Assembly (NCBI RefSeq): GCF_001280435.1
Contig: NZ_LBIP01000018.1
Location: 372,001-436,000, forward strand
Reading direction: 5' to 3'
DNA: 64,000 nucleotides
From: Mangrovimonas xylaniphaga
GTDB taxonomy: Bacteria; Bacteroidota; Bacteroidia; Flavobacteriales; Flavobacteriaceae
The notes below the pieces were generated by a model, which searched no databases, had not been told where the DNA came from, and saw only the letters and a list, made by a program, of their open reading frames with translations. Position 1 is the stretch's first letter. Every line of letters begins with the position of its first letter. The translations under genes and the position numbers were made by a program. Shown here one piece after another: positions 6,303 through 56,706 of the stretch.

Positions 6303-7154
6303 ATGATACCCATGATGACAAAACTCTATTATAAAGTGACATTGTTGCTACTAAGTTTACTAATTGTAGCCTGTTCCGAATCTGTCAAAGAGCATTCTCC
6401 TGAACGCATAAAAGTAGGCTTACGTGAGGCAGGGCACCAATTGTTGTTGCAATCTGGCGATTCCAGTTCCCGAGTGCTTCCTGTGGTAGCTTTGGACCCT
6501 TCCACCTATGAATTATCCTTTGAACAGTCCTTACAAATTATACCCGATAGTTTGGTGGCCATTGTAGAGCGCAGTTTGGAACGGGCAGAACTTTCGGATC
6601 GTTATTTGGTAGAAGTACTGCAGTGTGAAGATGCAGAAGTGGCCTATAGCTATGAGATGTGGCTGGAAGGGGAGCAGGGAATCGTACCGTGCCAAGGCCG
6701 CTTGCTGCCACAATCTTGTTATAGAATCCATGTGAAGTTTATAGAAGGGCAAAGATCGAACTCTAATTTGGTTTGGTTATGGCTACTCCCTGTAGGTGTT
6801 TTGGGCTGGTGGTTTTTTGGGCGAAAACACTTAGAGGTTTCAGAGCTTGCGGCCACCAAGGAAGTACCTTTGGGGCGTTTTATGTTCTATCCAGAACAGC
6901 ACAAATTGGTAACGCCTGCCACCGAAATAGCCCTTTCCAAAAAGGAATGCGAACTGTTAGAGCTGTTTGTGGAGCGCCCAAACCAAGTGATTAGCCGTGA
7001 TGAACTGAGCAAACGGGTTTGGGAAGACCATGGCGTGGTCGTGGGGCGCAGTTTGGACACCTATATTTCCAAGCTTCGTAAAAAACTACAGGATGATGAA
7101 CGGATCCAACTGGTCAATATTCATGGGGTTGGGTATAAGTTGGAGGTAAACTAG
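6303..7154 (+). CDS. Membrane-spanning winged-helix regulator with lipoprotein-like N-terminus
   Basis: A 283-residue one-component regulator. Residues 1-24 form a signal ending in LIVAC (candidate lipidated C24). Residues about 25-153 are a periplasmic sensor-like region with three Cys. Residues 155-173 are one strongly hydrophobic transmembrane helix. Residues 185-283 are an OmpR/PhoB-type winged-helix DNA-binding domain (LSKKECELLELF, ISRDELSKRVW, VVVGRSLDTYISKLRKKL, LVNIHGVGYKL). There is no receiver domain or kinase partner, so it probably senses something directly, in the manner of CadC/ToxR, although those proteins have the DNA-binding domain at the N-terminus. TGTCAA repeats 44 bp upstream are a likely own operator. 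Confidence 0.8.
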   Translation: MIPMMTKLYYKVTLLLLSLLIVACSESVKEHSPERIKVGLREAGHQLLLQSGDSSSRVLPVVALDPSTYELSFEQSLQIIPDSLVAIVERSLERAELSDRYLVEVLQCEDAEVAYSYEMWLEGEQGIVPCQGRLLPQSCYRIHVKFIEGQRSNSNLVWLWLLPVGVLGWWFFGRKHLEVSELAATKEVPLGRFMFYPEQHKLVTPATEIALSKKECELLELFVERPNQVISRDELSKRVWEDHGVVVGRSLDTYISKLRKKLQDDERIQLVNIHGVGYKLEVN

Positions 7155-7307
7155 CACCTGAGGATGCACTTATAATTGCTTTCTATTCTTATTTTTAGCT
7201 TCCTTTTATGGCTGAAAATGCTTATATTTAATATAGTATTTCTTCCATGTTGATATAATAGCCAACCCACTTCCCGTACAATACCTATTTAATTAATTGT
7301 GTTTATC

Positions 7308-9128
7308 ATGGAAAATTTTGTAGGTAGTCCCAGGGTGCTTTTTCAGTGCTGTTATTTTTTAGCATTCTTGCTCATTTTTTGTGTGGTACTTTATAAAAGT
7401 ATCAAAAGAGGGTATCATTTAAGATCGGTTCTTTTAATGATGACCACGATTTCTTTGTTTACGGTTTTAGGCTCAAGATTGTTTACCGTTCCCGTAGAAG
7501 ATTGGATCACGGCTATCAATTCGCATTCCCAAAATTTTAATAATCGGTCGGCCATAGGAGGGCTGTTTTTTGGTTTTTTGGGACTGTTGGTGTCCCAACG
7601 AATTTTCGGATTTGGACGTTTTATATTGAATTTATATGCCTGGATTTGCCCCATAGCTTTAGGAATTATTAAGCTGGGGTGTTTCTTTAATGGTTGTTGC
7701 TATGGTATTCCGTCCAATGGGATGTGGTCGGTTCAATATACTAAGGGAACCCATGCCCATTTTAACCATTGGAGTGCGGGACAGATTGCTCCTGAAGCCT
7801 TGGCGTCTTTATCGGTGCATCCTGTGCAACTTTATGAGAGTGTCTTGTTGGTTTTGATAGGCTATCTTGTTTGGAAAACCCATAAAAAATGGCAAAAGGC
7901 CCTAAGCGCCTTGTTGTTTGGACTGTCCCTGTTTTTTATGATGCGCTTTGGAATTGAATTTTTTAGGGATCCTACTGGCTCTCAGTTCAGCACTTTGTAT
8001 TATGCCGGCTTACGATCCTATCAATGGAGTATGTTGGCTTATGGTATGATTGCCGGAAGCGTCTTATGGTTTTACGAAAGCTACAAAGGTAGCGATTGGC
8101 TAAGGGGGCGGGAAAACTCCCCATTTCTTCATGCCGATTTTATGTATATCGTAGTCATTTCGGTCTGTCTATATAGTTTTAGGAACCTGTTTTCAACTTA
8201 TGAACTTTTGGTAATTTGGGTGAAGTTTTTCCCCGCTATTGTACTTTCGGTTTATTATCTCTATACAGAAAACAGGTTAAAGCCTTACAGAATGGCCATA
8301 AGTGTGGTGTTAGTGATGCCCTTATTTGTTTTTGCCCAAACCATCCCAACCCATAAAACCGCTATTAAAACCTACCATCGTGTTGATGTGGGAGGGTCGT
8401 TTGGTGATTTTGCAAATACGGTTAGGTATAATCCACAACAAGGAGATTGCGGTACGGTATATGATTCTGAAGACTATAGACAAACTTATAACGTTGGAGG
8501 CCTTGGCTATTCCTATATAAAGGAAAAAAACAACAAATCGCTTAGGCTAGGCGCCAATGTTCATGGGGGGATGGTGAAAAGCACCAATTTGACAAACAAT
8601 AATACCGAAAAGGATTTTGTGTTTGGTGTAAACCCCTTTGTGACCTATGATGGCAAGTGGCTAGGAGGAGGGGTTGGCTTTCAGTTGGGAAGTTTAAGAG
8701 TTAATAAACATCAATTTTATGACGCCACAAATATTGAGGATGCCCAAAAGGAATATGTGTTTTTGCCAGAAGTGCATGCACGATTTGGCCCTAAAAAATA
8801 TGTGGATATTGATTATAATTACGGCTTTCTGTTTCCTTCTCCATATCCTACGATATACCATCGCTCCAGTATAGGAAGTAGTTTTGGTTTAAGTCCTGAT
8901 TATAGTTTACGATATGGATATATTTGGAATTTGGAAACCAGCTATTTATCATTAGAAACCTTGATTACCAAAAATATGGGAGTACGCCTTATGTATATTT
9001 TTAAGGAACACTACAGGGAACACAATACTGGGCCCGGTCTTTTGGAAGATGAAGTAGGTGGTAAGTTTCTATTTTCAGTAAACTATCGGTTTGGAGAAAG
9101 TATCGGTCAAGCAAAGGCAAAGGATTGA
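7308..9128 (+). CDS. Lgt-like membrane domain fused to an exported beta-rich domain
   Basis: A 606-residue protein starting at ATG 7308 (TTAATTAA lies 11 bp before). Residues 1-325 are a multi-span domain resembling prolipoprotein diacylglyceryl transferase: KLGCFFNGCCYG (122-133), HPVQLYES (171-178) and RFGIEFFRDP (213-222). The signature Arg of true Lgt is Lys122 here, so the reaction is uncertain. Residues about 326-344 form a hydrophobic stretch ending FVFAQ, which looks like a signal peptidase I site. Residues 345-606 are a beta-rich domain rich in Gly/Tyr/Phe and ending in a barrel-like strand (FLFSVNYRF). Unless cleaved, the two halves would be joined across the inner membrane. It follows the winged-helix gene by 153 bp. 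Confidence 0.8.
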   Translation: MENFVGSPRVLFQCCYFLAFLLIFCVVLYKSIKRGYHLRSVLLMMTTISLFTVLGSRLFTVPVEDWITAINSHSQNFNNRSAIGGLFFGFLGLLVSQRIFGFGRFILNLYAWICPIALGIIKLGCFFNGCCYGIPSNGMWSVQYTKGTHAHFNHWSAGQIAPEALASLSVHPVQLYESVLLVLIGYLVWKTHKKWQKALSALLFGLSLFFMMRFGIEFFRDPTGSQFSTLYYAGLRSYQWSMLAYGMIAGSVLWFYESYKGSDWLRGRENSPFLHADFMYIVVISVCLYSFRNLFSTYELLVIWVKFFPAIVLSVYYLYTENRLKPYRMAISVVLVMPLFVFAQTIPTHKTAIKTYHRVDVGGSFGDFANTVRYNPQQGDCGTVYDSEDYRQTYNVGGLGYSYIKEKNNKSLRLGANVHGGMVKSTNLTNNNTEKDFVFGVNPFVTYDGKWLGGGVGFQLGSLRVNKHQFYDATNIEDAQKEYVFLPEVHARFGPKKYVDIDYNYGFLFPSPYPTIYHRSSIGSSFGLSPDYSLRYGYIWNLETSYLSLETLITKNMGVRLMYIFKEHYREHNTGPGLLEDEVGGKFLFSVNYRFGESIGQAKAKD

Positions 9129-9174: not shown

Positions 9175-10074
9175 TTATGAATACAGAATCAGGAAGACGC
9201 CCGTCATGATGCCCATTAAAGGCACCAATTTTTTACGCTTGTTTTTCTCCTTAAATATAAGTCCACCGATTACTACAGCAATGATTATCTGGCTGCGCTT
9301 GATAGCAGATAACAACATGATAAGGGCTTCTGGATCCTGCAGGGCTTTAAAATAAAAATAATCGGCGGCCTGCAGAAGGACCCCAACCCCAACAATAGAC
9401 CATCTAAATTTAAAGGCTTGACGTTTGGCTGCATAAGGAAACCAGGTGAAGCCTAAAATGATGCTTAAAATGAGTAGGGTATAGAGGCAAAACCAAAATT
9501 GCAGGGTTTGCGGATTGAGCTCCAAACTTTGAATGAGGAATTTATCGTAAAGTCCACTGCTAGCTCCTAAAAAAGTGGCAGCTATGATGGCAAAGATCCA
9601 TTTGTTGCGCTTAAAATTAATGCCCTCTTTTTTGCCAATTCTGGAATAGAGCATTACCGAGAAAATGATGAGGAAGAAGCCCATCCATTGGAACATGTTC
9701 GGGCTTTCCTTATAGATGACAATCGCGCCAATAAAGGTGAAAAATGGTCCTGCCGAACGTATGGGGGTTACGATGGTGATGGGCAGATGCTTAAGGGCTT
9801 GATAGGCCAAGACCCAAGAACTGGCCATGATGGCCGATTTGATAAAAATAAAACCATGGGTTTGCCATGGGATGTTTTGAAAGTGAAAACCTTTGTTTAA
9901 GGCCGCTTCAGGGTCTATGAGCGCTAACACATAAAAGGCTGCAATAAATACAAATCCACTGAACACCGTCCCGAAAAGTACTGGGTACACTTCGTTCCCT
10001 TGAACAGCGTGTTTTTTACATAAGTTGTGTAAGCCCAAAAAGAGCGCCGCCAATAATCCTAAATACATCCACAT
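9175..10074 (-). CDS. EamA/DMT-superfamily membrane transporter
   Basis: A 299-residue integral membrane protein with about ten hydrophobic helices in two EamA-like halves. The first half has MWMYLGLLAALFLGLHNL and APIRSAGPFFTF-like elements (VTPIRSAGPFF); the second has a long FAIIAATFLGASSGLYDKF segment. Members of the drug/metabolite transporter superfamily export or exchange amino acids, sugars or nucleotides; the substrate here is not predictable. The C-terminus is basic (KEKNKRKKL before the last helix). It converges on the Lgt-fusion gene with a 46-bp gap and no clear terminator, and has its own promoter region in the 171 bp shared with the lipoprotein gene. Confidence 0.85.
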   Translation of the reverse strand: MWMYLGLLAALFLGLHNLCKKHAVQGNEVYPVLFGTVFSGFVFIAAFYVLALIDPEAALNKGFHFQNIPWQTHGFIFIKSAIMASSWVLAYQALKHLPITIVTPIRSAGPFFTFIGAIVIYKESPNMFQWMGFFLIIFSVMLYSRIGKKEGINFKRNKWIFAIIAATFLGASSGLYDKFLIQSLELNPQTLQFWFCLYTLLILSIILGFTWFPYAAKRQAFKFRWSIVGVGVLLQAADYFYFKALQDPEALIMLLSAIKRSQIIIAVVIGGLIFKEKNKRKKLVPLMGIMTGVFLILYS

Positions 10075-10263
10075 GGCCGCGAAGATACTTCTTTTTTGAG
10101 AAGCTTTTACAGGTTAAGCAACTCTAGAAGGAGGGGGTGGACTATAATTGAAAAAAGTTGTATCTTTAGTACAATTCTTCCTTTACTAGATTGTTATTAT
10201 CTAGGTGATTTTTGATTCTCAAATCTCGGGCAAACAAGACTTCCTTTGCAATATTTTCACATC

Positions 10264-11955
10264 ATGATTTCTTTAAGTAACTTTAGGTTAAGGCCCCTTC
10301 AAGTATTTTCTAAGAATGGTAAAATAAGGGTGTGTTTGTCCCTTATATCGACAATCGCCTTTTTAAATCTCATTATAGGATGTTCCTATTACAACGTGAG
10401 GGATATAGCTACCACACCCGACACTATTTCTAATGAAATTGCAAATTTTAGTAGAACATACAATTACATTGTCATCCATACCAAGGGGCATATTTGGCAT
10501 TTAAATGATTTTTCGCTCAATGAAGAAAATGGTACAATTTCAGGTATTTCGGCTCCTTTACTTGAATCACATGTTTCTCTTAAACCTAGAGAAAATAAAC
10601 GAGTACATCGTTATTCTAATGACCAAAGTCCTTTTAATGAGCTACATTTTTATGTTGATTATACTGAAGCACCACAATTTGGAACAGAGGTAAGCTTTCC
10701 TTTTTCAGACATCACTTCTATCTCTGTTAATGATAAAAATACTGGACGAACTACGGCTAATATCCTTGGAGGAACTGTAGCTGTAATTGCTTTAGTAGCA
10801 GTAATTGTGGCCCTCACGAAGAGTTCCTGCCCATTTCTTTATGTCAAGGACGGTAATGAGTATCAATTTGCAGGAGAGTTGTATCCAGGAATTATCACGC
10901 CAAATATGCAATGTGATGACTATTTAAAATTACCAGATATGAAAGTAACCAATAACACTTATGACATTAAGGTGACCAATGAACTGAAAGAAGTCCAGCA
11001 TACAGATTTTTTAGAATTGGTAGAGATTAGCCATTCTCCGGATATTTCAGTACTTATGGATCAAAGTGGAAATCCCAAAACATTCTCTAAACTACACGCT
11101 CCAAAGCAGGCGGTAGTTCATGGGGTGAAGACCGATTTAGATTTGGTTTTAGAAAAGGACAGTCGCCCATTTCAATTTAATAATGAATTGGACTCAGATA
11201 CCAGTGTGCGGGGAGTAGACTTTCTTTTTGAGAAACCAAAGGTCGCAACCAACCAGGCAAAACTCTATTTAAGTGTTAAGAACTCTTTGTGGTTGGACTA
11301 TGTCTTTGGAAAGTTTAATGAACAATTTGGAACCTACTATCCAGAGTTTCAAAAGCAACAGCAAACTAGTTCAAAAAGAAAGAGTTTGGATTGGATAGAA
11401 GCCCAGCACATCCCATTAACGATATATGTGAAGACTACAAATGGTTGGGAGTTGGTTGAACGACTTCGTACTGTAGGACCTATGGCATATCGAGATTTGG
11501 CGGTTGCTGTAGATATGAGTAAGGTAGAAGGAGAGCAACTTGCTGTTAGGCTGGAAACAGGGTTTATGTTTTGGGAGGTCGATTATATAGGGATTGATTA
11601 TTCAGAAAATGTAGATTTAGCCATAGAACACATAACTCCATATAAAGCTATCGATCAACAGGGCAGGGATGTTACCGAAACATTATTGACCGCAGATAGC
11701 AATTATTTAATACAACCTAATGTAGGAGACGAGGTTACGATAAGTTTTCCCATAGAATCAAACGCAAACCCCTCAAAGCGAACTTACTTTCTGAGAAATA
11801 GAGGATATTACAACTATATAAGACAATATGATAAGGAACCTGATTTTCAAAAGCTAAAATTGTTTAGGGAAGCGGAAGCTTTTACAGATTTTTCCAAATA
11901 TGAATATGAGGCATTAATGACATATGAAAAGTCATTTGATGTGGTGGCTAAATAA
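10264..11955 (+). CDS. Large unknown lipoprotein with CPFLYVKDG domain
   Basis: A 563-residue envelope protein from ATG 10264 (a TTG at 10246 is in frame but less likely). The signal ends in LIIGC, giving a candidate lipidated C40. A second hydrophobic helix at about residues 169-187 is followed directly by SCPFLYVKDGNEYQFAGELY, a Cys-Pro-Phe/aromatic-Asp-Gly element I associate with large exported proteins of unknown role. The remainder is beta-rich, with a repeated aromatic pattern and no known catalytic motif. The stop codon lies 1 bp before the likely ATG of a radical SAM gene, so the two are one operon. Function unknown; a scaffold or substrate for the downstream enzymes is only a guess. 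Confidence 0.75.
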   Translation: MISLSNFRLRPLQVFSKNGKIRVCLSLISTIAFLNLIIGCSYYNVRDIATTPDTISNEIANFSRTYNYIVIHTKGHIWHLNDFSLNEENGTISGISAPLLESHVSLKPRENKRVHRYSNDQSPFNELHFYVDYTEAPQFGTEVSFPFSDITSISVNDKNTGRTTANILGGTVAVIALVAVIVALTKSSCPFLYVKDGNEYQFAGELYPGIITPNMQCDDYLKLPDMKVTNNTYDIKVTNELKEVQHTDFLELVEISHSPDISVLMDQSGNPKTFSKLHAPKQAVVHGVKTDLDLVLEKDSRPFQFNNELDSDTSVRGVDFLFEKPKVATNQAKLYLSVKNSLWLDYVFGKFNEQFGTYYPEFQKQQQTSSKRKSLDWIEAQHIPLTIYVKTTNGWELVERLRTVGPMAYRDLAVAVDMSKVEGEQLAVRLETGFMFWEVDYIGIDYSENVDLAIEHITPYKAIDQQGRDVTETLLTADSNYLIQPNVGDEVTISFPIESNANPSKRTYFLRNRGYYNYIRQYDKEPDFQKLKLFREAEAFTDFSKYEYEALMTYEKSFDVVAK

Positions 11956-11956
11956 A

Positions 11957-13192
11957 ATGAATTTGGAAATGATTACTGAAGTACAAGATTATACAAAACC
12001 GAAAGCACAGGTTGCAGAAACTAAGAAAGCTATAATTCCTAAAAGTTATATGGTTTCAGGATTGCGAATGCGATGGGTGCATTTTAGGCTAAAATTAACG
12101 CTTCTTAAGGTAGCAATGGTGTGCTATAGAAATCCTTTGGATTGGCTGCGCTCCCTTCGTTATTTAGTAGCCTTAAGAAAGCGATTTTTGGGCAATTACA
12201 GTCTCCAAAAGATGACATTTTTTAATGGTGAATATTTTATGGGCTTATATACGCCCGGTTGGAATAATGATATTTATAAGCGCTTTATAGCCTCCCAATT
12301 GCACGATTTCAAACCTATACAAAAAGGTTTGGTAAACAGGTTTAATACGGTCTTTTTGTCTGTTACTAAAAAATGTGCTTTGCAATGTGAACATTGCTAT
12401 GAGTGGGAGCATTTGAACAAGAAGGATACCTTGTCTGATACCGAACTAATTGACATTGTTGAGAAGTTACAAGGCCAGGGGGTAAGTCAAATTCAATTTT
12501 TAGGAGGGGAGCCACTATTACAAATGGAGACCTTGATAAAGTTGCTGCATCGTGCCGATACAAAAAGTACCAATTTTTGGGTGGTGACTTCAGGGTTTAA
12601 ATTAACTCTTGAAAATGCCAAACGTTTGAAAAAGGCTGGATTAAAAGGCGTCATTGTGAGTTTGGATCATTATGAAGAAGAAGAACACAATAGATTTAGG
12701 CATTTTAAGGATGCCTATTATTGGGTAGAACAAGCTTTGATCAATTCACAAAATGCAGGGTTGGTCACGGCATTATCCTTGTGTGCGACAAAAACATTCA
12801 TTTCAGAAGCTAATTTAATGTCATATATGGAGTTATCAAAGATATTTGGGGTGTCATTTGTGCAATTATTGGAACCTAAAGCTGTTGGGCATTATGCGCA
12901 AAAAGAGGTAAGCCTTGATGAAGGGCATATAGCTATTTTGGAAGATTTCTTTTTGAAAATGAATTTTGGTCCAGATTACAGAGATATGCCCATACTGAGC
13001 TATCATGGGTATTACCAACGCAGACAAGGTTGCTTTAGCGCAGGACTTAAGGGAATGTACATTGATAGCGATGGTGATATGAATGCCTGTCCGTTTTGCC
13101 ACAAGAAAACAGGTAAGGTGCTGGATGTAAATTATGAAAACCATTTAGAAGTTTTAAAAGCTGAAGGGTGTCCCACATATCCTTCCACTTAA
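11957..13192 (+). CDS. Radical SAM/SPASM-type protein
   Basis: A 411-residue enzyme expected to cleave S-adenosylmethionine with a [4Fe-4S] cluster. The cluster motif is C140-x3-C144-x2-C147 (KKCALQCEHCY), followed by the FLGGEPLL motif. The C-terminal region carries C359, C378, C381 and C405 (GCFSAGLKG, NACPFCHKK, GCP), consistent with one auxiliary cluster of SPASM/twitch type. The first 130 residues form a basic, partly hydrophobic extension (RMRWVHFRLKLTLLKVAMV) that could touch the membrane. I chose ATG 11957, 1 bp after the lipoprotein stop; a longer frame from 11924 would overlap it. No short precursor peptide lies beside it, so a peptide-maturation role is not obvious. The substrate is unknown. 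Confidence 0.85.
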   Translation: MNLEMITEVQDYTKPKAQVAETKKAIIPKSYMVSGLRMRWVHFRLKLTLLKVAMVCYRNPLDWLRSLRYLVALRKRFLGNYSLQKMTFFNGEYFMGLYTPGWNNDIYKRFIASQLHDFKPIQKGLVNRFNTVFLSVTKKCALQCEHCYEWEHLNKKDTLSDTELIDIVEKLQGQGVSQIQFLGGEPLLQMETLIKLLHRADTKSTNFWVVTSGFKLTLENAKRLKKAGLKGVIVSLDHYEEEEHNRFRHFKDAYYWVEQALINSQNAGLVTALSLCATKTFISEANLMSYMELSKIFGVSFVQLLEPKAVGHYAQKEVSLDEGHIAILEDFFLKMNFGPDYRDMPILSYHGYYQRRQGCFSAGLKGMYIDSDGDMNACPFCHKKTGKVLDVNYENHLEVLKAEGCPTYPST

Positions 13193-13204
13193 AGTCCAAC
13201 TATC

Positions 13205-13921
13205 ATGTTTTATGGGTTTTCACATACCGAGATTTGGTTAATAGGAACACTTTTGTTCATACTTCGCTATGTACTGGTTGCTGGTGTCTTTTTTTATCTG
13301 TTTTATGTCTTGAAAAAAACGAGGTTTTCTAAGTTTAAAATCCAAGAACATTTTCCTTTGAAGAAGCAAATTAAACGAGAAGTATTGTATTCATTACTAA
13401 CGTTTTTAATCTATGGTAGTAGTCTTTTGTTATTTGTGTTTTGGGTTGAAAACGGATATACCAAGTCTTATAATAATCTTCAGGAATATGGTCTGGCGTA
13501 TTTTGTTGCAAGCATACTTTTAATGGTTTTTATTCATGACACGTATTTCTATTGGACCCATAGATTAATTCATCATTCAAAATTTTTTAAACATATCCAT
13601 AAGGTGCACCACAGTTTTACAAGTCCAACACCTTGGGCGGCATTTGCATTTCATCCTTGGGAAGCTTTAATCTCTTTGGGATTCATACCAATAATATTGT
13701 TTGTTATTCCTCATCATCAATGGGCTTTGGTAGTTTTTATTACATTTTTAACGCTTTATAATGTCTTGATTCATTTGGGATTTAGCATTCCCAAATTGCA
13801 AAAAATGAAATTGTTCAACACTCCGGATGCTCACGATTACCATCACCTTAAGTCTAAAAAGAATTATGGCTTGTATTTTACTTTTTGGGATAGATTGATG
13901 GGAACTTATCAAGGTGCTTGA
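13205..13921 (+). CDS. Sterol desaturase/fatty-acid hydroxylase superfamily membrane enzyme
   Basis: A 238-residue di-iron membrane oxygenase. The histidine boxes are complete: H111 and H119 with H123-H124 (HDTYFYWTHRLIHH), H132-K-V-H135-H136, H150, H190 and H210-x3-H213-H214 (DAHDYHHL). Four or so hydrophobic helices surround them. Enzymes of this class hydroxylate or desaturate lipids, sterols, carotenoids or alkyl glycerols using O2. It starts 12 bp after the radical SAM gene, and the three genes look like one operon. That context suggests modification of a lipid or lipid-linked product, but the substrate is not known. Confidence 0.88.
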   Translation: MFYGFSHTEIWLIGTLLFILRYVLVAGVFFYLFYVLKKTRFSKFKIQEHFPLKKQIKREVLYSLLTFLIYGSSLLLFVFWVENGYTKSYNNLQEYGLAYFVASILLMVFIHDTYFYWTHRLIHHSKFFKHIHKVHHSFTSPTPWAAFAFHPWEALISLGFIPIILFVIPHHQWALVVFITFLTLYNVLIHLGFSIPKLQKMKLFNTPDAHDYHHLKSKKNYGLYFTFWDRLMGTYQGA

Positions 13922-14245
13922 AATTTTTACAATGAAGTTAAAATCCCAATCGCTGAGAATCTCGTATTTGAAAATTTCTTGACATTGGTACGGAATTTCA
14001 AAAATATGGCGAAGCTGAAATTTTGCAGTATTTGAGCAATGAATGCAAATTCCTAAAGGCTTTGACATATTATTGTAATCAATGAATTGTATGCCGTATA
14101 ATTTCTTTTAACATAATTTCTGACGATTAGTATGCTAAATAGCCGTGAAATACGGCTATGAAGAAATTACTATATAATTGAACTATAATTTATATTATGT
14201 AAAATAGAAATTTTCCGATTTTGATGTTCCCTTTTTCTCCTTTAA
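13922..14245. other. 324-bp non-coding stretch with a small hairpin
   Basis: No credible gene is seen. A perfect 7-bp hairpin, TAGCCGT (14140-14146) and ACGGCTA (14152-14158) with a 5-nt loop, lies in the middle between two converging genes. It lacks a good T run on either side, so it is at best a weak terminator. Confidence 0.5.
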
Positions 14246-14674
14246 TTATTTGTTTTCCTTAATCCGTTTGATATATACATCCAATACCCTGTTGTAATGC
14301 TCCAGATGCTGTTGGTATTGGCTTTCGGTAAGTAAAGGTTTTATTTTGGCATTCACCTTTGTTTTGTCTTCTTCGATTTTGGATAAAATTTCTGCCTGAT
14401 CATAGTTTTTATCCTTATCTGTTAAACGGCCAAGTTCATAAATATGATCGGATAAAATACTGGCATATGTGTTTCTGGTACTTTCAGACAATCCCAATTT
14501 GTTGGTCTGTTCGTAAAACCACATTTGGATATTGTCCCGTTCATCTGGTGTGAAGACTTCCACTTTGTTGGCCATCCGTTCTTTTTCTTTAGGCGTTAAG
14601 GTATTTTGAGCGTTTGTAGAAAGGATTGCCCCTAAGGCCAAAATGGGCCATACATAGGTTTTATTAGCTGCCAT
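14246..14674 (-). CDS. Unknown exported helical protein, 142 residues
   Basis: Not recognised. The N-terminus is a signal peptide with a likely cleavage after STNAQ, the Flavobacteriaceae-typical A-x-A/Q pattern. The mature part is almost wholly alpha-helical and charged (LTPKEKERMANKVE, LTDKDKNYDQAEILSKIEEDK, YNRVLDVYIKRIKENK). This composition recalls small periplasmic helical stress proteins of the Spy/CpxP kind, but I see no LTxxQ signature, so this is only a shape analogy. It is a single gene divergent from an OmpA-family gene. Confidence 0.65.
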   Translation of the reverse strand: MAANKTYVWPILALGAILSTNAQNTLTPKEKERMANKVEVFTPDERDNIQMWFYEQTNKLGLSESTRNTYASILSDHIYELGRLTDKDKNYDQAEILSKIEEDKTKVNAKIKPLLTESQYQQHLEHYNRVLDVYIKRIKENK

Positions 14675-14849
14675 ATAAAATTGTTTTATGTATTAAATAT
14701 AGTGTAAAGTCCTCATATTTAACAGTAAACAGTTTGAAAATTATACTTACTGATAGATTTTCCTTAAATTATGTAATCATTTATAATCTATAAGCGCAGT
14801 TCATCCGTAGATATACATAAGACATCGAAACATTAATTAAATAACTATT

Positions 14850-15674
14850 ATGAGAAAATTTTCTATTGTAATACTTACAGCAATTGCTTTAACCTCCTGT
14901 GTGTCCAAAAAGAAATATTTGGCACTTGAAAAAGACAATGGAGAGTTGAAAAGTGAACTCACCAAAACCAAGGTTGAAAACGAAGAATTGGAAGCGCAAT
15001 TTGCCGCCATCCAAGCCCGTGTAGATCAATACAATGCCCGAATTAACTCCCTTTCTGAAGAATCTGATGCCAAAATGGTATCTGTTGACGGGGTTGTGAT
15101 TTCTGAAGATCAAAAGGCACAAATGCGCGAGATGTTAAAGAACGTCCCTCCTGCTTATTTGGCCAATGCCAAAACCTTGAAGGATTCCATGAACGCTGCT
15201 ATTTCATACAATGTAAGAAGCAACGTTACCAATATTGATGAAACCGAAGATGTGAGCATGAATATTGAAGGAACTGTTGTAATGATTTCCATTGCAGATG
15301 AGCTATTGTTTAGATCCGGAAGCTTCAATATTAGTAATGATGCGGACCATATTTTGAAAAAATTGGCAGATGTTATCAACTCAGAACCAAGTGTTGAAGT
15401 AATGGTTGAAGGGCATACAGATTCACAATCTATCAGCAATGTAAAAGTATCAGACAACTGGGAATTAAGTGTATTGCGTGCTGCTTCTGTAGTGAAAAAA
15501 TTGCAAAACGACTTTGATGTAGCTCCAGAAAAACTTATCGCTGCTGGACGTAGTTTTTACCAACCTCTAACCGATAATGATACTGCAGAGCATAGAGCTG
15601 TCAACAGAAGAACTAGGATTTTAATCCTTCCAAACCTGGATAAGTTCTTTGCATTAATATCAGCTGAAGAGTAA
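14850..15674 (+). CDS. OmpA-family lipoprotein with coiled coil
   Basis: A 274-residue outer-membrane lipoprotein expected to bind peptidoglycan. The lipobox is LTSC (C17). Residues about 22-75 are a charged coiled coil. The OmpA C-terminal domain covers about residues 155-265, with LLFRSGSFNIS, VEGHTDSQ and the NRRTRILI end. The coiled coil would span the periplasm between membrane and wall. It is a single gene with TTAATTAA 9 bp before the ATG and a strong terminator after it. Confidence 0.92.
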   Translation: MRKFSIVILTAIALTSCVSKKKYLALEKDNGELKSELTKTKVENEELEAQFAAIQARVDQYNARINSLSEESDAKMVSVDGVVISEDQKAQMREMLKNVPPAYLANAKTLKDSMNAAISYNVRSNVTNIDETEDVSMNIEGTVVMISIADELLFRSGSFNISNDADHILKKLADVINSEPSVEVMVEGHTDSQSISNVKVSDNWELSVLRAASVVKKLQNDFDVAPEKLIAAGRSFYQPLTDNDTAEHRAVNRRTRILILPNLDKFFALISAEE

Positions 15675-15713
15675 ATTGCTCTCCTGATACCCTGTTATTT
15701 AATTAATCCTGTT

Positions 15714-15749
15714 AAAAAAGACTACTTCCCTCAAAGTAGTCTTTTTTTT
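15714..15749 (+). terminator. Intrinsic terminator after the OmpA-family gene
   Basis: GACTACTT (15720-15727) pairs with AAGTAGTC (15734-15741); the flanking A and T runs extend the stem, and eight T follow. Confidence 0.9.
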
Positions 15750-15844
15750 CCCTAGAACGCACTCCTGTGTTAGTTAAAAAAGTGGTAAAAAATTAGACCA
15801 ATCCTAAAGCGTATGGTATTTTTGTGACTCCATAAAATTACCAT

Positions 15845-16135
15845 ATGCTTTCACTTAAAAACATCTTTCGTATTACAGCCTTTTTGGAAGGAATTTCTTA
15901 TATTTTATTACTGTTTATTGCGGTTCCCATTAAATATTTTGGGCAAGACCCTCAATATGTAAAACTATTGGGCATGCCACATGGCCTATTGTTTATTGCC
16001 TATATTATTTTTGCCATTATTTTGGGAAGTAGGTTACAGTGGAACAATAAAATTCTTATTAAAGTTTTAATTGCCTCAATTCTGCCTTTTGCTACCTTTG
16101 TTGTAGACAGAAAACTATTAAAACAAGAGGCATAA
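15845..16135 (+). CDS. DUF3817 small membrane protein
   Basis: A 96-residue protein with three hydrophobic helices that matches the DUF3817 family: RITAFLEGISYILLLF at the N-terminus, the central MPHGLLFIAYI element and a basic C-terminus (DRKLLKQ). The family has no established function. Its stop lies 1 bp before the GTG start of a mechanosensitive channel gene, so the two are co-transcribed and probably translationally coupled. Confidence 0.85.
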   Translation: MLSLKNIFRITAFLEGISYILLLFIAVPIKYFGQDPQYVKLLGMPHGLLFIAYIIFAIILGSRLQWNNKILIKVLIASILPFATFVVDRKLLKQEA

Positions 16136-16136
16136 C

Positions 16137-17387
16137 GTGGAATCATTTTCGCATTATTTTTACGATTATTTTATTTCTTTAGACTTTTCAGAAACTGCAG
16201 CTACCTATTTGAATATGGGAGTATTGCTAGTCATTTTGGCTATCATCATTCTTGTTGCAGATGTGGTGACCAAAAAAATATTGGTGAGCACTTTTGAAAG
16301 ATTTGCCCATAAATCCAAAACCAATTTCGACGACCTTTTAATTTCCCATAAGGCTCCTCGAAATTTGGCGCATTTGGTACCTTTTTTAATCACCTTAAAT
16401 CTTTTCCCTGTAGTTTTTGTGGACTTCCCAAATTTTGAAGCTCCTGTAGAAGCTTTGATTAAAGTGTATGGAGTCCTGCTCTTCATTTGGATTTTAAGAA
16501 GTGTTTTAAAGACTTTAGAAGCCTATTTTAAAACCTTGCCTCGCCTTAAGGACAAGCCTATAGACAGTTACATACAGGTTGTAATGCTTTTTGTATGGGG
16601 GATTGGTTTGATTCTTTGTTTTGCAATTCTTACCAACATTTCCATTGTTCGCTTCTTAACAGGATTAGGGGCTGCTTCGGCGGTTTTACTGTTGATTTTC
16701 AAGGATACCATTTTGGGGTTTGTGGCCAGTATTCAAGTTGCAGTAAACGACACCATCAGAATTGGAGATTGGGTGACCATTGAAAAGTTTGGAGCAGATG
16801 GTACGGTAATCGAAATCAATTTGAATACGGTTCAGGTACAAAATTTTGACAATACCATTACCAATATCCCAACCTCTGCCCTTATTTCGGAATCTTTTAA
16901 GAATTGGCGAGGGATGAGCAATTCCGGTGGACGACGAATTAAGAGGTCCTTAATAATTAAAGTGTCTTCGGTAAAATATTTAGACTCTCAAGGTGTGGAA
17001 GACCTTAAAAAGATTCAGTTGATAACCAATTATCTTACGACACGTCAAAAAGATATCGACAACTTCAATAGCAACCATAATATTGATAAGTCATTGCTTA
17101 TAAACGGTAGAAACCTGACTAATTTGGGAGTGTTTAGGAAGTATATACAGACTTATATTGAAAACCATTCAGCCATTAACAAGGACATGATGATCATGAC
17201 GCGCCAATTGGAGGCTACACCACATGGTATTCCTTTAGAAATTTATGCGTTTAGTAGTGACAAGCGTTGGGAGAATTATGAATATATCATTTCAGATATT
17301 TTTGATCATATGCTTGCAGCGGTTCCCTACTTTGGGCTGGAAGTGTTCGAGGTAATAAATGGAAACCTAAACCTTAGCAAGAACTAA
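16137..17387 (+). CDS. MscS-family mechanosensitive ion channel, YbdG-like
   Basis: A 416-residue inner-membrane channel that would release solutes under osmotic down-shock. About five hydrophobic helices precede the MscS core: the pore-lining helix has the Gly/Ala pattern FLTGLGAASAVLLLIFKDTILGF, followed by the beta domain (IRIGDWVTIEKFGADGTV, NIPTSALISESFKNW). Length and the long C-terminal domain (RQLEATPHGIPLEIYAF) fit the YbdG/MscM branch rather than short MscS. The start is GTG 16137, directly after the DUF3817 stop. The end of the gene is part of a hairpin terminator. Confidence 0.9.
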   Translation: MESFSHYFYDYFISLDFSETAATYLNMGVLLVILAIIILVADVVTKKILVSTFERFAHKSKTNFDDLLISHKAPRNLAHLVPFLITLNLFPVVFVDFPNFEAPVEALIKVYGVLLFIWILRSVLKTLEAYFKTLPRLKDKPIDSYIQVVMLFVWGIGLILCFAILTNISIVRFLTGLGAASAVLLLIFKDTILGFVASIQVAVNDTIRIGDWVTIEKFGADGTVIEINLNTVQVQNFDNTITNIPTSALISESFKNWRGMSNSGGRRIKRSLIIKVSSVKYLDSQGVEDLKKIQLITNYLTTRQKDIDNFNSNHNIDKSLLINGRNLTNLGVFRKYIQTYIENHSAINKDMMIMTRQLEATPHGIPLEIYAFSSDKRWENYEYIISDIFDHMLAAVPYFGLEVFEVINGNLNLSKN

Positions 17388-17398
17388 AGTTTAGGTTT
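17363..17398. terminator. Bidirectional hairpin overlapping the channel gene stop
   Basis: Arms 17363-17377 and 17384-17398 pair at 14 of 15 positions; the stop codon (17385-17387) is inside the 3' arm. It lies between two converging genes. Confidence 0.7.
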
Positions 17399-17418
17399 CT
17401 TAATAATAATTTGGTGTA

Positions 17419-50907: not shown

Positions 50908-53900
50908 TTAATTGAAAACAGTTTTCTTGGTGATTATCTCATTACCATTACAAACTACTTTGATGATAAATGCTCCATTTTTGAAAGTTGATGTATCAAC
51001 CTCTAAACTGAAATCTTCACCTTCCAAGAGTTGGTTTAGATCAATTTGATAAACTAAATTCCCTTGCATATCATAGATAGCAATACTTTGAACACTTTGA
51101 CATCCCGATAAATTTAATGTCAATAAATCAGAATGTTTATCAAAATAGAAGCTAAACTCACCAATGGTAATCTCAGGCCCAACAATCGCACTACAATCAG
51201 TAACATTGATGGTAACGGAAGCTTGATCCTCGTCCAATTCATTATAAACAGTTACGGTATATTCTGTAGCTTCTTCAGGAGAAACGGTGATACTTTGCGT
51301 TGTTTCGCCTGTACTCCAAAGGTACTCATCACCTCCAGAAGCTGTTAATACAACACTCTCACCTAAACACACTTCCAAACTTTCAGCTACTATTTCAGCA
51401 GAAACTAGCTCAATAACTTTTACAGTTACTTGTTGAGTAGCCTCACATCCATTCACAAATCCAGTTACTTCATAAACAGTAGTTACACTAGGGCTTACGG
51501 CAATATTTGGTTCGGTAGCACCATTGCTCCAAATGTAGTTGTTTGCCCCTGTTGCAGATAATGTTACATAATCTCCTAAAAGAATTGTTACAATCTCACC
51601 ATTAGTTATACTTACACTTGGAAGCGGATTTACAGTAACAATTACATCATCGCTATCCTGGTTATCTCCAACAAAAGCAGTTACCGAATAAGTGGTTGTT
51701 GCTTCTGGGCTCACGGTGATGCTAGCGGTAGTCTCACCTGTGCTCCATAGGTAAGTGTCACCTCCTGTTGCAGTCAGTGTCACATTGCTTCCCTGACAGA
51801 TCGTTTGGTCCTCGCCTGCATTGGCATTAACGATTACAGTAGTGTCCTCTTCAACAGTTACGGTCACCGTATCGGTAGCTTCACATCCGTTTACAAATCC
51901 AGTCACTTCATAAGTGGTGGTTACAGCAGGGCTTACAGTAATTGTAGCGGCTGTAGCTCCCGTATTCCATACATAAGTGTTTCCTCCGGTTGCAGTAAGC
52001 GTTACGCTCTCCCCTTCGGTAATAGTTACGTTGGCTCCCGCATCCACTACAGGCAATTCGTTTACGGTTACAGTTACTTCGTCCGTTCCTTCGTTTTCCC
52101 CGATAAAAGCAGTTACCGAATAAGTGGTTGTTGCTTCTGGGCTCACGGTGATGCTAGCCGTAGTTTCACCTGTGTTCCATAGGTAAGTGTCACCTCCTGT
52201 TGCAGTCAATGTCACTGTATTTCCCTGACAGATGGTTTGGTCCTCACCTGCATTGGCATTAACGATTACAGCGGTATCCTCCTCAACGGTTACGGTCACC
52301 GTATCGGTAGCCTCACATCCGTTTACAAATCCAGTCACTTCATAAGTCGTGCTTACAGCTGGGCTTACAGTAATTGTAGCGGCTGTAGCTCCCGTATTCC
52401 ATACATAGGTGTTTCCTCCGGTTGCAGTAAGCGTTACGCTCTCCCCTTCGGTGATCGTTACGTTGGCTCCTGCATCCACTACAGGCAATTCGTTTACGGT
52501 TACGGTAACTTCGTCCGTTCCTTCATTCTCCCCGATATAAGCAGTTACCGAATAAGTGGTAGTTGCTTCTGGACTTACAGTGATGCTAGCGGTAGCCTCA
52601 CCTGTATTCCAAAGGTAAGTATCACCTCCTGTTGCAGTTAGTGTCACAGTACTTCCCTGACAGATGGTTTGGTCCTCGCCTGCATTGGCATTAACGATTA
52701 CAGTAGTGTCCTCCTCAACGGTTACGGTCACCGTATCGGTAGCCTCACATCCGTTTACAAATCCAGTCACTTCATAAGTCGTGGTTACAGCTGGGCTTAC
52801 AGTGATTGTAGCGGCTGTAGCTCCCGTATTCCATACATAGGTGTTTCCTCCGGTTGCAGTAAGCGTTACGCTCTCCCCTTCGGTGATCGTTACATTGGCT
52901 CCTGCATCCACTACGGGCAATTCGTTTACGGTTACGGTTACATCGTCCGTTCCTTCATTTTCTCCGATATAAGCGGTTACCGAATAAGTGGTAGTTGCCT
53001 CTGGGCTTACAGTGATACTAGCAGTAGTTTTACCTGTGTTCCATAAGTAAGTATCACCTCCCGTAGCAGTCAGTGTCACTGTACTTCCCTGACAGATGGT
53101 TTGGTCCTCACCTGCATTGGCATTAACGATTACAGTAGTGTCCTCTTCAACGGTTACGGTCACGGTATCGGTAGCCTCACATCCGTTTACAAATCCAGTC
53201 ACTTCATAAGTGGTGGTTACAGCTGGGCTTACAGTGATTGCAGCGGCTGTAGCTCCCGTATTCCATACATAAGTGTTTCCTCCGGTTGCAGTAAGCGTTA
53301 CGCTCTCCCCTTCGGTGATCGTTACATTGGCTCCCGCATCCACTGTAGGCAATTCGTTTACGGTTACGGTAACTTCGTCCGTTCCTTCACTTTCTCCTAT
53401 ATAAGCAGTTACCGAATAAGTGGTTGTTGCTTCTGGGCTTACAGTGATGCTCGCAGTGGTTTCACCTGTGTTCCATAGGTAAGTGTCACCTCCCGTAGCA
53501 GTCAATGTCACTGTACTTCCCAGGCAGATGGTTTGGTCCTCACCTGCATTGGCATTAACGATTACAGTAGTGTCCTCTTCAACGGTTACGGTCACGGTAT
53601 CGGTAGCCTCACATCCGTTTACAAATCCAGTCACTTCATAAGTGGTGGTTACAGCTGGGCTTACAGTGATTGCAGCGGCTGTAGCTCCCGTATTCCATAC
53701 ATAAGTGTTTCCTCCGGTTGCAGTAAGCGTTACGCTCTCCCCTTCAGTGATCGTTACATTGGCTCCCGCATCCACTGTAGGCAATTCATTTACGGTTACT
53801 GTTACTTCGTCCGTTCCTTCATTTTCTCCTATATAAGCGGTTACCGAATAAGTCGTGGTAGCTTCTGGGCTCACGGTGATGCTAGCGGTAGTCTCTCCTG

Positions 53901-56706
53901 TGTTCCATAAATAAGTATCACCTCCTGTTGCAGTTAGTGTCACAGTACTTCCCTGACAGATGGTTTGGTCCTCGCCTGCATTGGCATTAACGATTACAGT
54001 GGTATCCTCCTCAACGGTTACGGTCACTGTATCGGTAGCCTCACATCCGTTTACAAATCCAGTTACTTCATAAGTCGTGGTTACATCTGGGCTTACAGTG
54101 ATTGTAGCGGCTGTAGCTCCCGTATTCCATACATAAGTGTTTCCTCCGGTTGCAGTAAGCGTTACGCTCTCCCCTTCGGTGATCGTTACATTGGTTCCTG
54201 CACCTACTGTTGGCAATTCGTTTACCGTTACGGTTACTTGATCTGTATCAGCACAAGAATTAGAGGTCACTTCAACAAAATATGTAGTTGTTGAGTTAGG
54301 GCTTACCGTAATACTTTGAGTAGTTGCTCCTGTATTCCATAGATAACTTCCTCCACCAGAAGCAGTCAAGGTTACTGATTCGCCCTGACAGATGCTTACA
54401 TCATTTCCTGCATCTGCGTTTGGCAGTGCATTTACTGTTACGGTTACCTGGTCAGTGTCAGAGTTACTTCCTGTACTACTATAAGCAGTCACCGTATAAG
54501 TTGTAGTCTCTTCCGGAAATACTGTAATACTTTCTGTAGTTGCTCCATTGCTCCATTCATAAGTACTTCCTCCTGTAGCTGTAAGAGTTACAGATTCGCC
54601 TTGACAAATTTCCTGATTTTGGCCAGCGTCAGCAACAACACTATTATCTACCAAAACAACGGTAACAGTATCTGTACTTTCACAGCCATTAGTGTATCCT
54701 GTAACTTCATATGTTGTTGTTTGAGCCGGACTCACCGTTATACTTTGGGTTGTAGCTCCCGTATTCCAACTATAGGTATTAGCTCCTGAAGCTGTAAGAG
54801 TTACACTTTCTCCATAACCGATAGTAACATCATTTCCAGCATTAACTTGTGATAATTCATTTACTGTTACAGTGACTTCATCTGAGTCCGAACAAGAATT
54901 AGAGGTTACTTCAACCGAATAAGTAGTTGTTGAGTTAGGACTTACCGTAATACTTTGGGTAGTTGCTCCAGTATTCCAGAGGTAACTACTTCCTCCGGAA
55001 GCACTAAGAGTTACACTGTTTCCTTGACAGATACTAACGTCATTCCCTGCATTTGCAGTTGGAAGTGCATTTACCGTAACTGTTACTTCATCTGTGTCAG
55101 AGTTACTTCCTGTGCTGCTATAAGCAGTTACTGTATAAGTTGTGGTTTCCTCTGGAGATACTTCAATGCTTGCAGTAGTTTCTCCGTTACTCCATTCATA
55201 TGTCGTACCTCCAGTAGCCGTTAAAGTAACTGTTTCCCCTTCACAAATTGTTTGATCTTCTCCTGCGTTTGCAGTAATTGCCGGAGTTGTTGTGGCTGTG
55301 TTTCCATCTACTCCATTTAAAAATTCTTCCAACCAAGTGTAGCCACTTGGCGCAAAGTCATTGTGATCCTGTCCATTAGGAACATTTGCTTGAAACCAGG
55401 TTTCTGGAATATGTGGATTAGATTGGTAATAATTGGAGGACCTTGAATTCGATGTTATGCCCGGTACTACATACTCACTTTGAGATAACTGACTAGTATA
55501 TTTTCCATTCTTAACATTATTCAGCCATTCTGTATCTAAAGCATCTAAGTTATTACTAACCGATCCATCTGCATTAAGTCTGGCATTACAGCCAACATCC
55601 ATTTTAACATCATTAAAAGCATTATCAGCTGATTGAATTTCTAATGGAGCTCCGAATAAACTAAATTGATTACTAGAAAAATAATTTGATGGTACTTGAT
55701 CACCTGTAGAATAACCCCCTGCATCTTTAAAGAACTTCCATGCCAAAGTGTTATTTGAATTCATTTGAGAAACACTACTAGTTAAAGATCCTATGTTTTT
55801 AACCACATATTTATTTCCATTAGTATGAATTTTAGGCACATAGCTTTGAAGTAAATTATAGTTATTTATTTTTTTATCCGTTATTGTTGTATTGCCATAA
55901 TCATAGTAATTACCAATATGATTTAGAGTGAAATCACCATTACCTCTAATAATCCTATTTGTAACAGTCCAAACAACGTTATTAATAACCTCATAATTGC
56001 CTCCATAACCATTAATATTTGGAAACCTATGAGTAATGTTATACCATAAATTATTCAACGCAGAAATTTTACCTATATTAACTCCTTCTGCACCACCCAA
56101 AATTGTACCTTTTACACTTTCGGCAAATATCGATCTCTGTACAGTGACATTATTTATTGTAGCATCTGTATTTGTTGTATTCCAACTAGCAGCTTCATCT
56201 ACTCCAAAAGCAAAAGAACAATGGTCGAAAATCATATTCGTCATGTTGCCGGTTGCCGTGAAACTATCATCACCTCCATCAACACCTCCTTTAAAGCGAA
56301 TATGTCTAACAATTACGTTATCTCCTCCACTAAAATAAACCCTATTTCCATCGATAGTAATACCTCCTTCAGGGGCAGTTTGACCAGCAATAGTAATATT
56401 ATTAGCAGAAGTAGTAGCAATTGAATTTAGATGAATAACTCCACTAACATCAAATACGACAATTCTATTCGAACCTCGAATAGCATCTCTAAAACTACCT
56501 GTTCCACTATCATTTAAATTAGTGACATGGTAAACTTCACCCCCTCGTCCACCTGTTGCATAGGCTCCTGCGCCTCTTGCTGTGGGGAAGGCTAATTGTT
56601 GGGAAAATGAATTGAAACTAAAAAGTGAAATAAATAAAAGGGTATAAATTTTTGCACAAAGATTGTGCATACCATTTCCATGGTAGGTCAAATTTGGGGT
56701 TTTCAT
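50908..56706 (-). CDS. Giant T9SS-secreted pectate-lyase-like adhesin with 19 Ig/PKD-like modules
   Basis: A 1,932-residue exported protein. Residues 1-36 include the signal peptide (ending FSFNSFSQQ). Residues about 37-470 are a parallel beta-helix resembling polysaccharide lyase family 1 pectate lyases (FPTARGAGAYATGGRGGEVY, VTNLNDSGTGSFRDAI, HRFPNINGYGGNYEVINNVV). Residues 479-about 1838 hold 19 modules of some 70-74 residues with the pattern SVTLTATGG, Y-x-W-x-T/N-G-x-T, SPxxTTTY. Residues about 1850-1932 match a type A T9SS sorting domain (IAIYDMQGNLVYQIDL, NGAFIIKVVCNG, ITKKTVFN). It is probably surface-attached or released and acts on pectin-like plant or algal polymers. Confidence 0.9.
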   Translation of the reverse strand: MKTPNLTYHGNGMHNLCAKIYTLLFISLFSFNSFSQQLAFPTARGAGAYATGGRGGEVYHVTNLNDSGTGSFRDAIRGSNRIVVFDVSGVIHLNSIATTSANNITIAGQTAPEGGITIDGNRVYFSGGDNVIVRHIRFKGGVDGGDDSFTATGNMTNMIFDHCSFAFGVDEAASWNTTNTDATINNVTVQRSIFAESVKGTILGGAEGVNIGKISALNNLWYNITHRFPNINGYGGNYEVINNVVWTVTNRIIRGNGDFTLNHIGNYYDYGNTTITDKKINNYNLLQSYVPKIHTNGNKYVVKNIGSLTSSVSQMNSNNTLAWKFFKDAGGYSTGDQVPSNYFSSNQFSLFGAPLEIQSADNAFNDVKMDVGCNARLNADGSVSNNLDALDTEWLNNVKNGKYTSQLSQSEYVVPGITSNSRSSNYYQSNPHIPETWFQANVPNGQDHNDFAPSGYTWLEEFLNGVDGNTATTTPAITANAGEDQTICEGETVTLTATGGTTYEWSNGETTASIEVSPEETTTYTVTAYSSTGSNSDTDEVTVTVNALPTANAGNDVSICQGNSVTLSASGGSSYLWNTGATTQSITVSPNSTTTYSVEVTSNSCSDSDEVTVTVNELSQVNAGNDVTIGYGESVTLTASGANTYSWNTGATTQSITVSPAQTTTYEVTGYTNGCESTDTVTVVLVDNSVVADAGQNQEICQGESVTLTATGGSTYEWSNGATTESITVFPEETTTYTVTAYSSTGSNSDTDQVTVTVNALPNADAGNDVSICQGESVTLTASGGGSYLWNTGATTQSITVSPNSTTTYFVEVTSNSCADTDQVTVTVNELPTVGAGTNVTITEGESVTLTATGGNTYVWNTGATAATITVSPDVTTTYEVTGFVNGCEATDTVTVTVEEDTTVIVNANAGEDQTICQGSTVTLTATGGDTYLWNTGETTASITVSPEATTTYSVTAYIGENEGTDEVTVTVNELPTVDAGANVTITEGESVTLTATGGNTYVWNTGATAAAITVSPAVTTTYEVTGFVNGCEATDTVTVTVEEDTTVIVNANAGEDQTICLGSTVTLTATGGDTYLWNTGETTASITVSPEATTTYSVTAYIGESEGTDEVTVTVNELPTVDAGANVTITEGESVTLTATGGNTYVWNTGATAAAITVSPAVTTTYEVTGFVNGCEATDTVTVTVEEDTTVIVNANAGEDQTICQGSTVTLTATGGDTYLWNTGKTTASITVSPEATTTYSVTAYIGENEGTDDVTVTVNELPVVDAGANVTITEGESVTLTATGGNTYVWNTGATAATITVSPAVTTTYEVTGFVNGCEATDTVTVTVEEDTTVIVNANAGEDQTICQGSTVTLTATGGDTYLWNTGEATASITVSPEATTTYSVTAYIGENEGTDEVTVTVNELPVVDAGANVTITEGESVTLTATGGNTYVWNTGATAATITVSPAVSTTYEVTGFVNGCEATDTVTVTVEEDTAVIVNANAGEDQTICQGNTVTLTATGGDTYLWNTGETTASITVSPEATTTYSVTAFIGENEGTDEVTVTVNELPVVDAGANVTITEGESVTLTATGGNTYVWNTGATAATITVSPAVTTTYEVTGFVNGCEATDTVTVTVEEDTTVIVNANAGEDQTICQGSNVTLTATGGDTYLWSTGETTASITVSPEATTTYSVTAFVGDNQDSDDVIVTVNPLPSVSITNGEIVTILLGDYVTLSATGANNYIWSNGATEPNIAVSPSVTTVYEVTGFVNGCEATQQVTVKVIELVSAEIVAESLEVCLGESVVLTASGGDEYLWSTGETTQSITVSPEEATEYTVTVYNELDEDQASVTINVTDCSAIVGPEITIGEFSFYFDKHSDLLTLNLSGCQSVQSIAIYDMQGNLVYQIDLNQLLEGEDFSLEVDTSTFKNGAFIIKVVCNGNEIITKKTVFN
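51826..54207 (-). repeat. 432-bp tandem repeats inside the giant protein gene (5.5 copies)
   Basis: Module pairs of 70 + 74 residues (ANAGEDQTICQGSTV... type and VDAGANVTITEGESV... type) recur exactly every 432 bp, with pair starts at 53985, 53553, 53121, 52689 and 52257 and a last half pair at 51825. Base identity between copies is very high by eye. A half unit (residues 834-907) precedes the array. High identity implies recent duplication or gene conversion and possible copy-number change. Confidence 0.9.

Follow-up and report, generated by a model that had tools for sequence, protein, structure and literature searches.

A conserved gene pair for a radical SAM enzyme and a large membrane-anchored protein in Mangrovimonas xylaniphaga: a putative protein-maturation unit

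What do three tightly packed genes of a flavobacterium, encoding a large envelope protein, a radical S-adenosylmethionine (SAM) enzyme and a membrane hydroxylase, do together? The question is raised by a locus of Mangrovimonas xylaniphaga, which lies in a stretch of 64,000 nucleotides (contig NZ_LBIP01000018.1, positions 372,001 to 436,000) that we analyzed as a whole and refer to as the window. The genes are LIPO, for a membrane-anchored partner protein (10264-11955, plus strand, 563 amino acids), RSAM, for the radical SAM enzyme (11957-13192, plus strand, 411 amino acids), and FAH, an optional third gene for an integral membrane protein of the fatty acid hydroxylase superfamily (13205-13921, plus strand, 238 amino acids). 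All three are co-directional, with gaps of 1 bp and 12 bp, and RSAM has an alternative in-frame start at 11924 that gives a longer open reading frame (ORF) overlapping LIPO. An earlier note on this DNA had described the three genes, in this order, as a single unit, and the ORFs bear this out. Our main finding is that LIPO and RSAM are the two-gene core of the system, and FAH an accessory to it. We propose, with a probability of roughly one half, that RSAM is dedicated to maturing the C-terminal module of LIPO, and that FAH is a membrane hydroxylase with an accessory part.

A scan of reference genomes yielded 16 related loci. ORF comparison places LIPO directly before RSAM in nearly all of them and FAH third in most, and the flanking genes change from genus to genus. 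Among 299 Flavobacteriaceae genomes, at E below 1e-40, those with a full-length LIPO and those with RSAM are the identical 16; each gene has 17 copies, and the two are always adjacent. The chance of this co-occurrence is about 8e-27 in a hypergeometric calculation that treats genomes as independent and ignores their relatedness; since genomes are not independent, the figure is a strong indication only. Across the phylum, RSAM is present in 7 of 345 genomes, each time next to LIPO and in one case with the order RSAM-LIPO. Adjacency persists down to about 30% identity between LIPO proteins, across classes and in two gene orders. Whether the genes are rarely adjacent elsewhere, or have different conserved neighbours, was the point on which the earlier note had staked its proposal; LIPO and RSAM turned out to be adjacent in every genome found. 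Their linkage is far beyond chance. The two frames overlap or are at most 23 bp apart in 28 of 30 loci, and translational coupling is therefore likely. The evolutionary distances of RSAM also correlate with those of LIPO (r = 0.90, 30 loci) and of FAH (r = 0.93, 16 loci), in Mantel tests uncorrected for species phylogeny. Plasmid-borne copies were looked for as well, and no plasmid record spans 80% of RSAM.

Two genomes indicate which part of LIPO goes with RSAM. G001, from the same genus, and G122, from another, retain LIPO as an intact ORF of just its first 190 or so residues, and these short proteins end right after a second hydrophobic helix, just ahead of an SSCP motif. Neither locus has RSAM or FAH; in G001, the intergenic DNA 3' of FAH can still be recognized, and the C-terminal part of LIPO, RSAM and FAH are gone. 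This joint loss ties RSAM to the C-terminal module of LIPO. All three genes are under purifying selection, with ratios of non-synonymous to synonymous divergence (dN/dS) of 0.12 for LIPO, 0.16 for RSAM and 0.13 for FAH relative to G002, the nearest relative bearing the unit. It is conceivable that the genes are neighbours without a common function that were transferred together, and their sporadic distribution (16 of the 299 family genomes) and differing flanks fit the horizontal spread of a block. However, such hitch-hiking is very unlikely given the joint loss, the purifying selection, and an adjacency that withstands so much divergence, across classes and in either gene order.

RSAM belongs to the radical SAM superfamily. 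It scores 70.5 bits against the Pfam model Radical_SAM (cut-off 29.5), and its CX3CX2C motif (Cys140, Cys144 and Cys147) stands unchanged in all 29 full sequences. The earlier label 'radical SAM/SPASM' stands in its first half only: the score against the Pfam SPASM model is 11.3 bits, under the cut-off of 21.5, and the cysteines conserved in this part are C359, C378, C381 and C405, each with one or no exceptions. Because four C-terminal cysteines are fewer than the seven or eight that a SPASM domain needs for its two auxiliary clusters, this part of RSAM is probably twitch-like, a type with one such cluster. A further cysteine, Cys276, is also invariant in the 29 sequences and lies, in the predicted model, at the end of the barrel strand 270-276. 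RSAM reaches no NCBIfam equivalog cut-off, and by profile scores it is a discrete family: RSAMs of intact cassettes score at least 241 bits against the RSAM profile, and other radical SAM proteins in those genomes at most 64. In one single-contig genome (G085, locus L075), RSAM is broken by a stop codon and continues in another frame, its tail appearing as a separate fragment of 136 bits; this is either a pseudogene or a sequencing error.

The predicted structure of RSAM (predicted local distance difference test, pLDDT, 86) has SkfB as its closest solved fold, with Z 24.6 over 287 aligned residues at 3.2 Å, covering residues 102-410. Viperins, SuiB, BlsE and anSME (Z about 20), PqqE and MoaA come next; GDGT-MAS, a lipid-acting radical SAM enzyme, is found among both the sequence and the fold matches, with a fold Z of 17.9 against the 24.6 of SkfB. 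The N terminus had been thought membrane-prone, a view that we abandon: its first 100 or so residues are predicted to form a helical hairpin with small strands (30-94) instead of a membrane segment, and this part lies outside the best of the fold matches. Since viperins, BlsE and MoaA follow SkfB closely in fold, and MoaA is the best sequence match of RSAM in the PDB, RSAM might make a small diffusible product, cofactor-like or nucleotide-like, for which LIPO would be the dedicated receptor. We consider this improbable: no kinase or other pathway gene is conserved near the unit in the neighbour comparison over loci, and assignment to viperins or a defence system was rejected at 51.2 bits against a cut-off of 180 (viperin_w_prok) and 55.9 bits for pVip in PADLOC. 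A cluster for a ribosomally synthesized and post-translationally modified peptide (RiPP) with its own peptide precursor was rejected as well: as the earlier note had remarked, no precursor peptide is seen, and a systematic comparison of small ORFs within 1.5 kb found none common to at least three of 32 loci.

LIPO exceeds the cut-off of no Pfam or NCBIfam family. Its N-terminal hydrophobic segment ends in Cys40 in a lipobox-like context and leads into a beta domain; immediately before the C-terminal module, which starts with SSCPF (codons K186-F191, KSSCPF, at 10819-10836, plus strand), comes a second hydrophobic helix (165-185). Two cysteines are kept in 31 of 31 sequences, namely Cys40, which closes the first hydrophobic segment, and Cys189, within SCP. 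LIPO had been called a lipoprotein, and a cysteine does follow a hydrophobic stretch in all 31 sequences, 25 of which fit a relaxed lipobox pattern, but given the helix 165-185 ahead of the C-terminal module, 'lipoprotein' alone may be wrong as a topology. A lipid anchor at Cys40 combined with a transmembrane helix at 165-185 would place the C-terminal module in the cytoplasm; the presence of homologues in large FG-GAP proteins suggests that the module is exported.

In the AlphaFold2 model of LIPO (mean pLDDT 77), the N-terminal beta domain and the helix 165-185 are followed by a C-terminal part rich in beta structure. Matches to solved folds are confined to a jelly-roll at about 273-450 (Z up to 10.1, 135 aligned residues, 3.0 Å); they include carbohydrate-binding modules and MAM, ephrin-receptor and BcsB domains, and may reflect a common arrangement. 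No solved relative was found by sequence, and a viral structure library gave only matches of low template-modelling score. Profile-profile comparison revealed homology of LIPO 188-516 to the C-terminal end of TPR/FG-GAP/UnbV-ASPIC proteins of 1100-1200 residues (98.7% probability), and of the whole of LIPO to proteins of 510-530 residues from other classes, none of which is accompanied by RSAM (100%). Certain segments are conserved in RSAM-linked LIPOs and replaced in the RSAM-free relatives. Foremost among these are codons 429-440 (RLETGFMFWEVD, 11548-11583, plus strand) and codons 344-355 (LDYVFGKFNEQF, 11293-11328, plus strand), the latter adjoining a near-invariant Trp343; the segment 429-440 is a candidate recognition or modification site. 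Some RSAM-free homologues (L126, L127 and L128) belong to a conserved trio of their own in other classes, with a small lipoprotein of 143-164 amino acids and a secreted protein of about 300. The trio proteins tested gave no Pfam matches, and the set is possibly another uncharacterized envelope system.

The third gene is of the kind the earlier note had taken it to be, a histidine-box hydroxylase. FAH belongs to the fatty acid hydroxylase superfamily, scoring 111 bits against the Pfam model FA_hydroxylase (PF04116, cut-off 31), and the histidines of its boxes are invariant in 12 of 12 sequences. The three-gene cassette as such is conserved only in part, about half of the loci having no FAH. The gene stands third after RSAM, as in M. 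xylaniphaga, in 16 of 32 loci. A metagenome-assembled genome of the Flammeovirgaceae (L020) has FAH running in frame into the start of LIPO without an intervening stop codon, which may be a true fusion; LIPO is also split by a stop in this locus, and an assembly error is possible. At L121, FAH lies one ORF away on the opposite strand, and all remaining loci are without it. In the RSAM tree, FAH-free lineages (L026, L023, L075 and L076; L018 and L078) are nested within FAH-bearing ones, so FAH has been lost repeatedly. In the FAH tree, the sequences from L020 and L121 show a weak grouping with free-standing homologues and may be separate recruitments. Most genomes with an FAH-free unit have no close FAH elsewhere; G351 has one.

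FAH raises the question of whether the target is a lipid rather than a protein. RSAM and FAH could act in turn on a membrane lipid or a lipid-linked small molecule, with RSAM working in the manner of the tetraether synthase and LIPO binding, carrying or displaying the product. Several observations fit: the FAH superfamily is one of lipid hydroxylases and FAH distances follow those of RSAM, GDGT-MAS is among the matches of RSAM, and the jelly-roll of LIPO resembles carbohydrate-binding folds. In L020, FAH is joined to LIPO itself, and in L121 it is found near RSAM, in a position for which the tree is compatible with separate recruitment. Set against these are the repeated losses of FAH, when LIPO is never lost, the higher fold rank of peptide maturases over GDGT-MAS, and the lack of any further lipid gene conserved near the unit or of any link found between LIPO and lipid binding. 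We regard a lipid target as possible though rather unlikely.

A protein substrate is favoured by the strict pairing of LIPO with RSAM, by the disappearance of RSAM together with LIPO's C-terminal module, and by the peptide-maturase fold of RSAM. That LIPO is the substrate is our inference, and so are the residue modified, the reaction, where in the cell it happens and what FAH contributes. RSAM would be a dedicated, twitch-type radical SAM maturase of the protein encoded by the adjacent gene, acting in the cytoplasm before or during the insertion of LIPO into the membrane. It would cleave SAM, abstract a hydrogen atom from a residue in the C-terminal SCP/jelly-roll module, and then complete the modification at that residue. 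Radical SAM epimerases use a critical cysteine in catalysis (PMC8326336), and by analogy Cys276 could give the hydrogen atom back. Once modified, the module would have its role in the envelope, where it may serve for binding, with a partner in the outer membrane. In loci that have it, FAH would serve in the same pathway as an accessory membrane di-iron hydroxylase. Small outer-membrane-barrel-like genes of several sequence groups, within about 65 bp of the unit or overlapping it in about one quarter of the loci, provide hints of such a partner of LIPO; they adjoin LIPO or RSAM at L021, L079, L083, L012, L013, L119, L120 and L123.

Several points weigh against the maturase proposal. The modification of LIPO by RSAM is itself our proposal, and the fold list of RSAM also includes small-molecule enzymes (viperin, BlsE, MoaA) and, lower, the lipid enzyme GDGT-MAS. 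The C-terminal module, with its SCP motif, occurs in RSAM-free proteins too, so a module of this type can in general do without RSAM. That the RSAM-specific segments are conserved may simply follow from RSAM-linked LIPOs forming a single clade. No RiPP recognition element (RRE), a winged helix, can be recognized in the N-terminal model of RSAM, for which no dedicated RRE search was made. Finally, the presence of FAH points to lipid chemistry nearby.

Should RSAM indeed mature LIPO, the consequences would reach beyond this locus. To our knowledge, few radical SAM enzymes have known protein clients of the size of LIPO, and in this case the genome itself points to the likely client, a single partner protein that is always next door. 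Because LIPO is always encoded beside RSAM, the substrate can be tested directly by mass spectrometry. We know of no role for the SCP module at the end of the widespread TPR/FG-GAP/UnbV-ASPIC proteins; the proposal, if true, would offer a first functional handle on this module and on a nameless radical SAM family, and would describe a new envelope-protein modification in a flavobacterium. A bolder and tentative extension is a new class of radical SAM protein maturation, in which a twitch-type enzyme modifies a large membrane-anchored SCP/jelly-roll protein, for example by epimerization or cross-linking of aromatic residues, and the di-iron FAH of many flavobacteria acts on the same protein or its anchor.

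The genes flanking the unit are parts of other units: upstream an EamA transporter (9175-10074, minus strand), downstream a minus-strand gene (14246-14674). Scans for promoters and terminators gave a signal no higher than in shuffled sequences. Synonymous divergence from G002 (locus L025) is about 0.3 upstream of 9175, then jumps to 0.6-1.6 over the unit and as far as about 17400, as if recombination in the stretch 9175-17400 had taken another course. Two genes upstream of the unit lies a divergent protein with an LGT domain (prolipoprotein diacylglyceryl transferase, PF01790, 67 bits; 7299-9128, plus strand, 609 amino acids) and an extra C-terminal beta-rich region. This fusion gene is missing from G001, the same-genus genome in which RSAM, FAH and the C-terminal module of LIPO are lost as well, and L019 has a distant relative of it 2.2 kb upstream of its unit. 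It was rejected as a core operon member, full-length relatives being present in 5 of 22 unit-bearing genomes versus 1 of 23 others and mostly unlinked. Upstream of it, a membrane-anchored transcription regulator (6303-7154, plus strand) has a signal-like segment at its N terminus, a transmembrane helix further on and a Trans_reg_C DNA-binding domain at its C terminus. Far downstream, a CHU_C-associated Ig-like repeat protein of 1932 amino acids (50908-56706, minus strand) carries a weak Por secretion tail; its gene contains about six tandem repeats of 432 bp with 93% matches (51675-54239), which suggests a recent repeat expansion.

How does the unit compare with known systems? Pairs of an enzyme and its dedicated protein substrate are an already known kind. 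The LIPO-RSAM unit is undescribed in the libraries and papers searched, and no description of the LIPO-RSAM-FAH trio was found among openly licensed papers. The earlier suggestion of an undescribed modification of a lipid or an envelope protein thus stands as far as a self-contained and undescribed unit is concerned, and the evidence favours the protein without settling the choice. FAH shares the histidine boxes of the superfamily of OlsE and passes the PF04116 cut-off, but it was rejected as an ornithine lipid hydroxylase OlsE (equivalog score 34.9, cut-off 475). The NCBIfam pair TIGR04133 (rSAM_w_lipo) and TIGR04134 (lipo_with_rSAM) is alike in kind, a radical SAM/SPASM protein and a lipoprotein named as such by NCBI. 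RSAM reaches 46.9 bits against TIGR04133 (cut-off 425); the TIGR04134 model of 150 positions has no match in this genome, in a search without a positive control, and LIPO has no NCBIfam match. In the TPR/FG-GAP/UnbV-ASPIC proteins (PF13517, PF07593), the last 430 or so residues begin with an SCPF motif as in LIPO and share homology with LIPO 188-516, whereas LIPO is without the TPR, FG-GAP and UnbV_ASPIC parts and has a membrane-anchored N-terminal domain of its own. It was rejected as a UnbV_ASPIC domain protein, as it does not match PF07593 and the homology is only to the region after that domain. SkfB, a twitch-domain sactipeptide maturase and the closest fold, has the single auxiliary-cluster architecture that is predicted for RSAM; it carries an N-terminal RRE domain and acts with a peptide precursor (PMC8326336), whereas RSAM has a helical hairpin and no precursor was found. 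Closest to the activity proposed for RSAM is anSME, the founding member of the SPASM class, which turns an active-site cysteine or serine of sulfatases into formylglycine (PMC5682303): in that case the client of a radical SAM enzyme that bears auxiliary clusters in its C-terminal part is a protein and not a short peptide. The eight SPASM cysteines of anSME hold two auxiliary clusters, compared with four conserved cysteines in RSAM, and, unlike the clients of anSME, LIPO is no sulfatase and is always encoded beside its RSAM.

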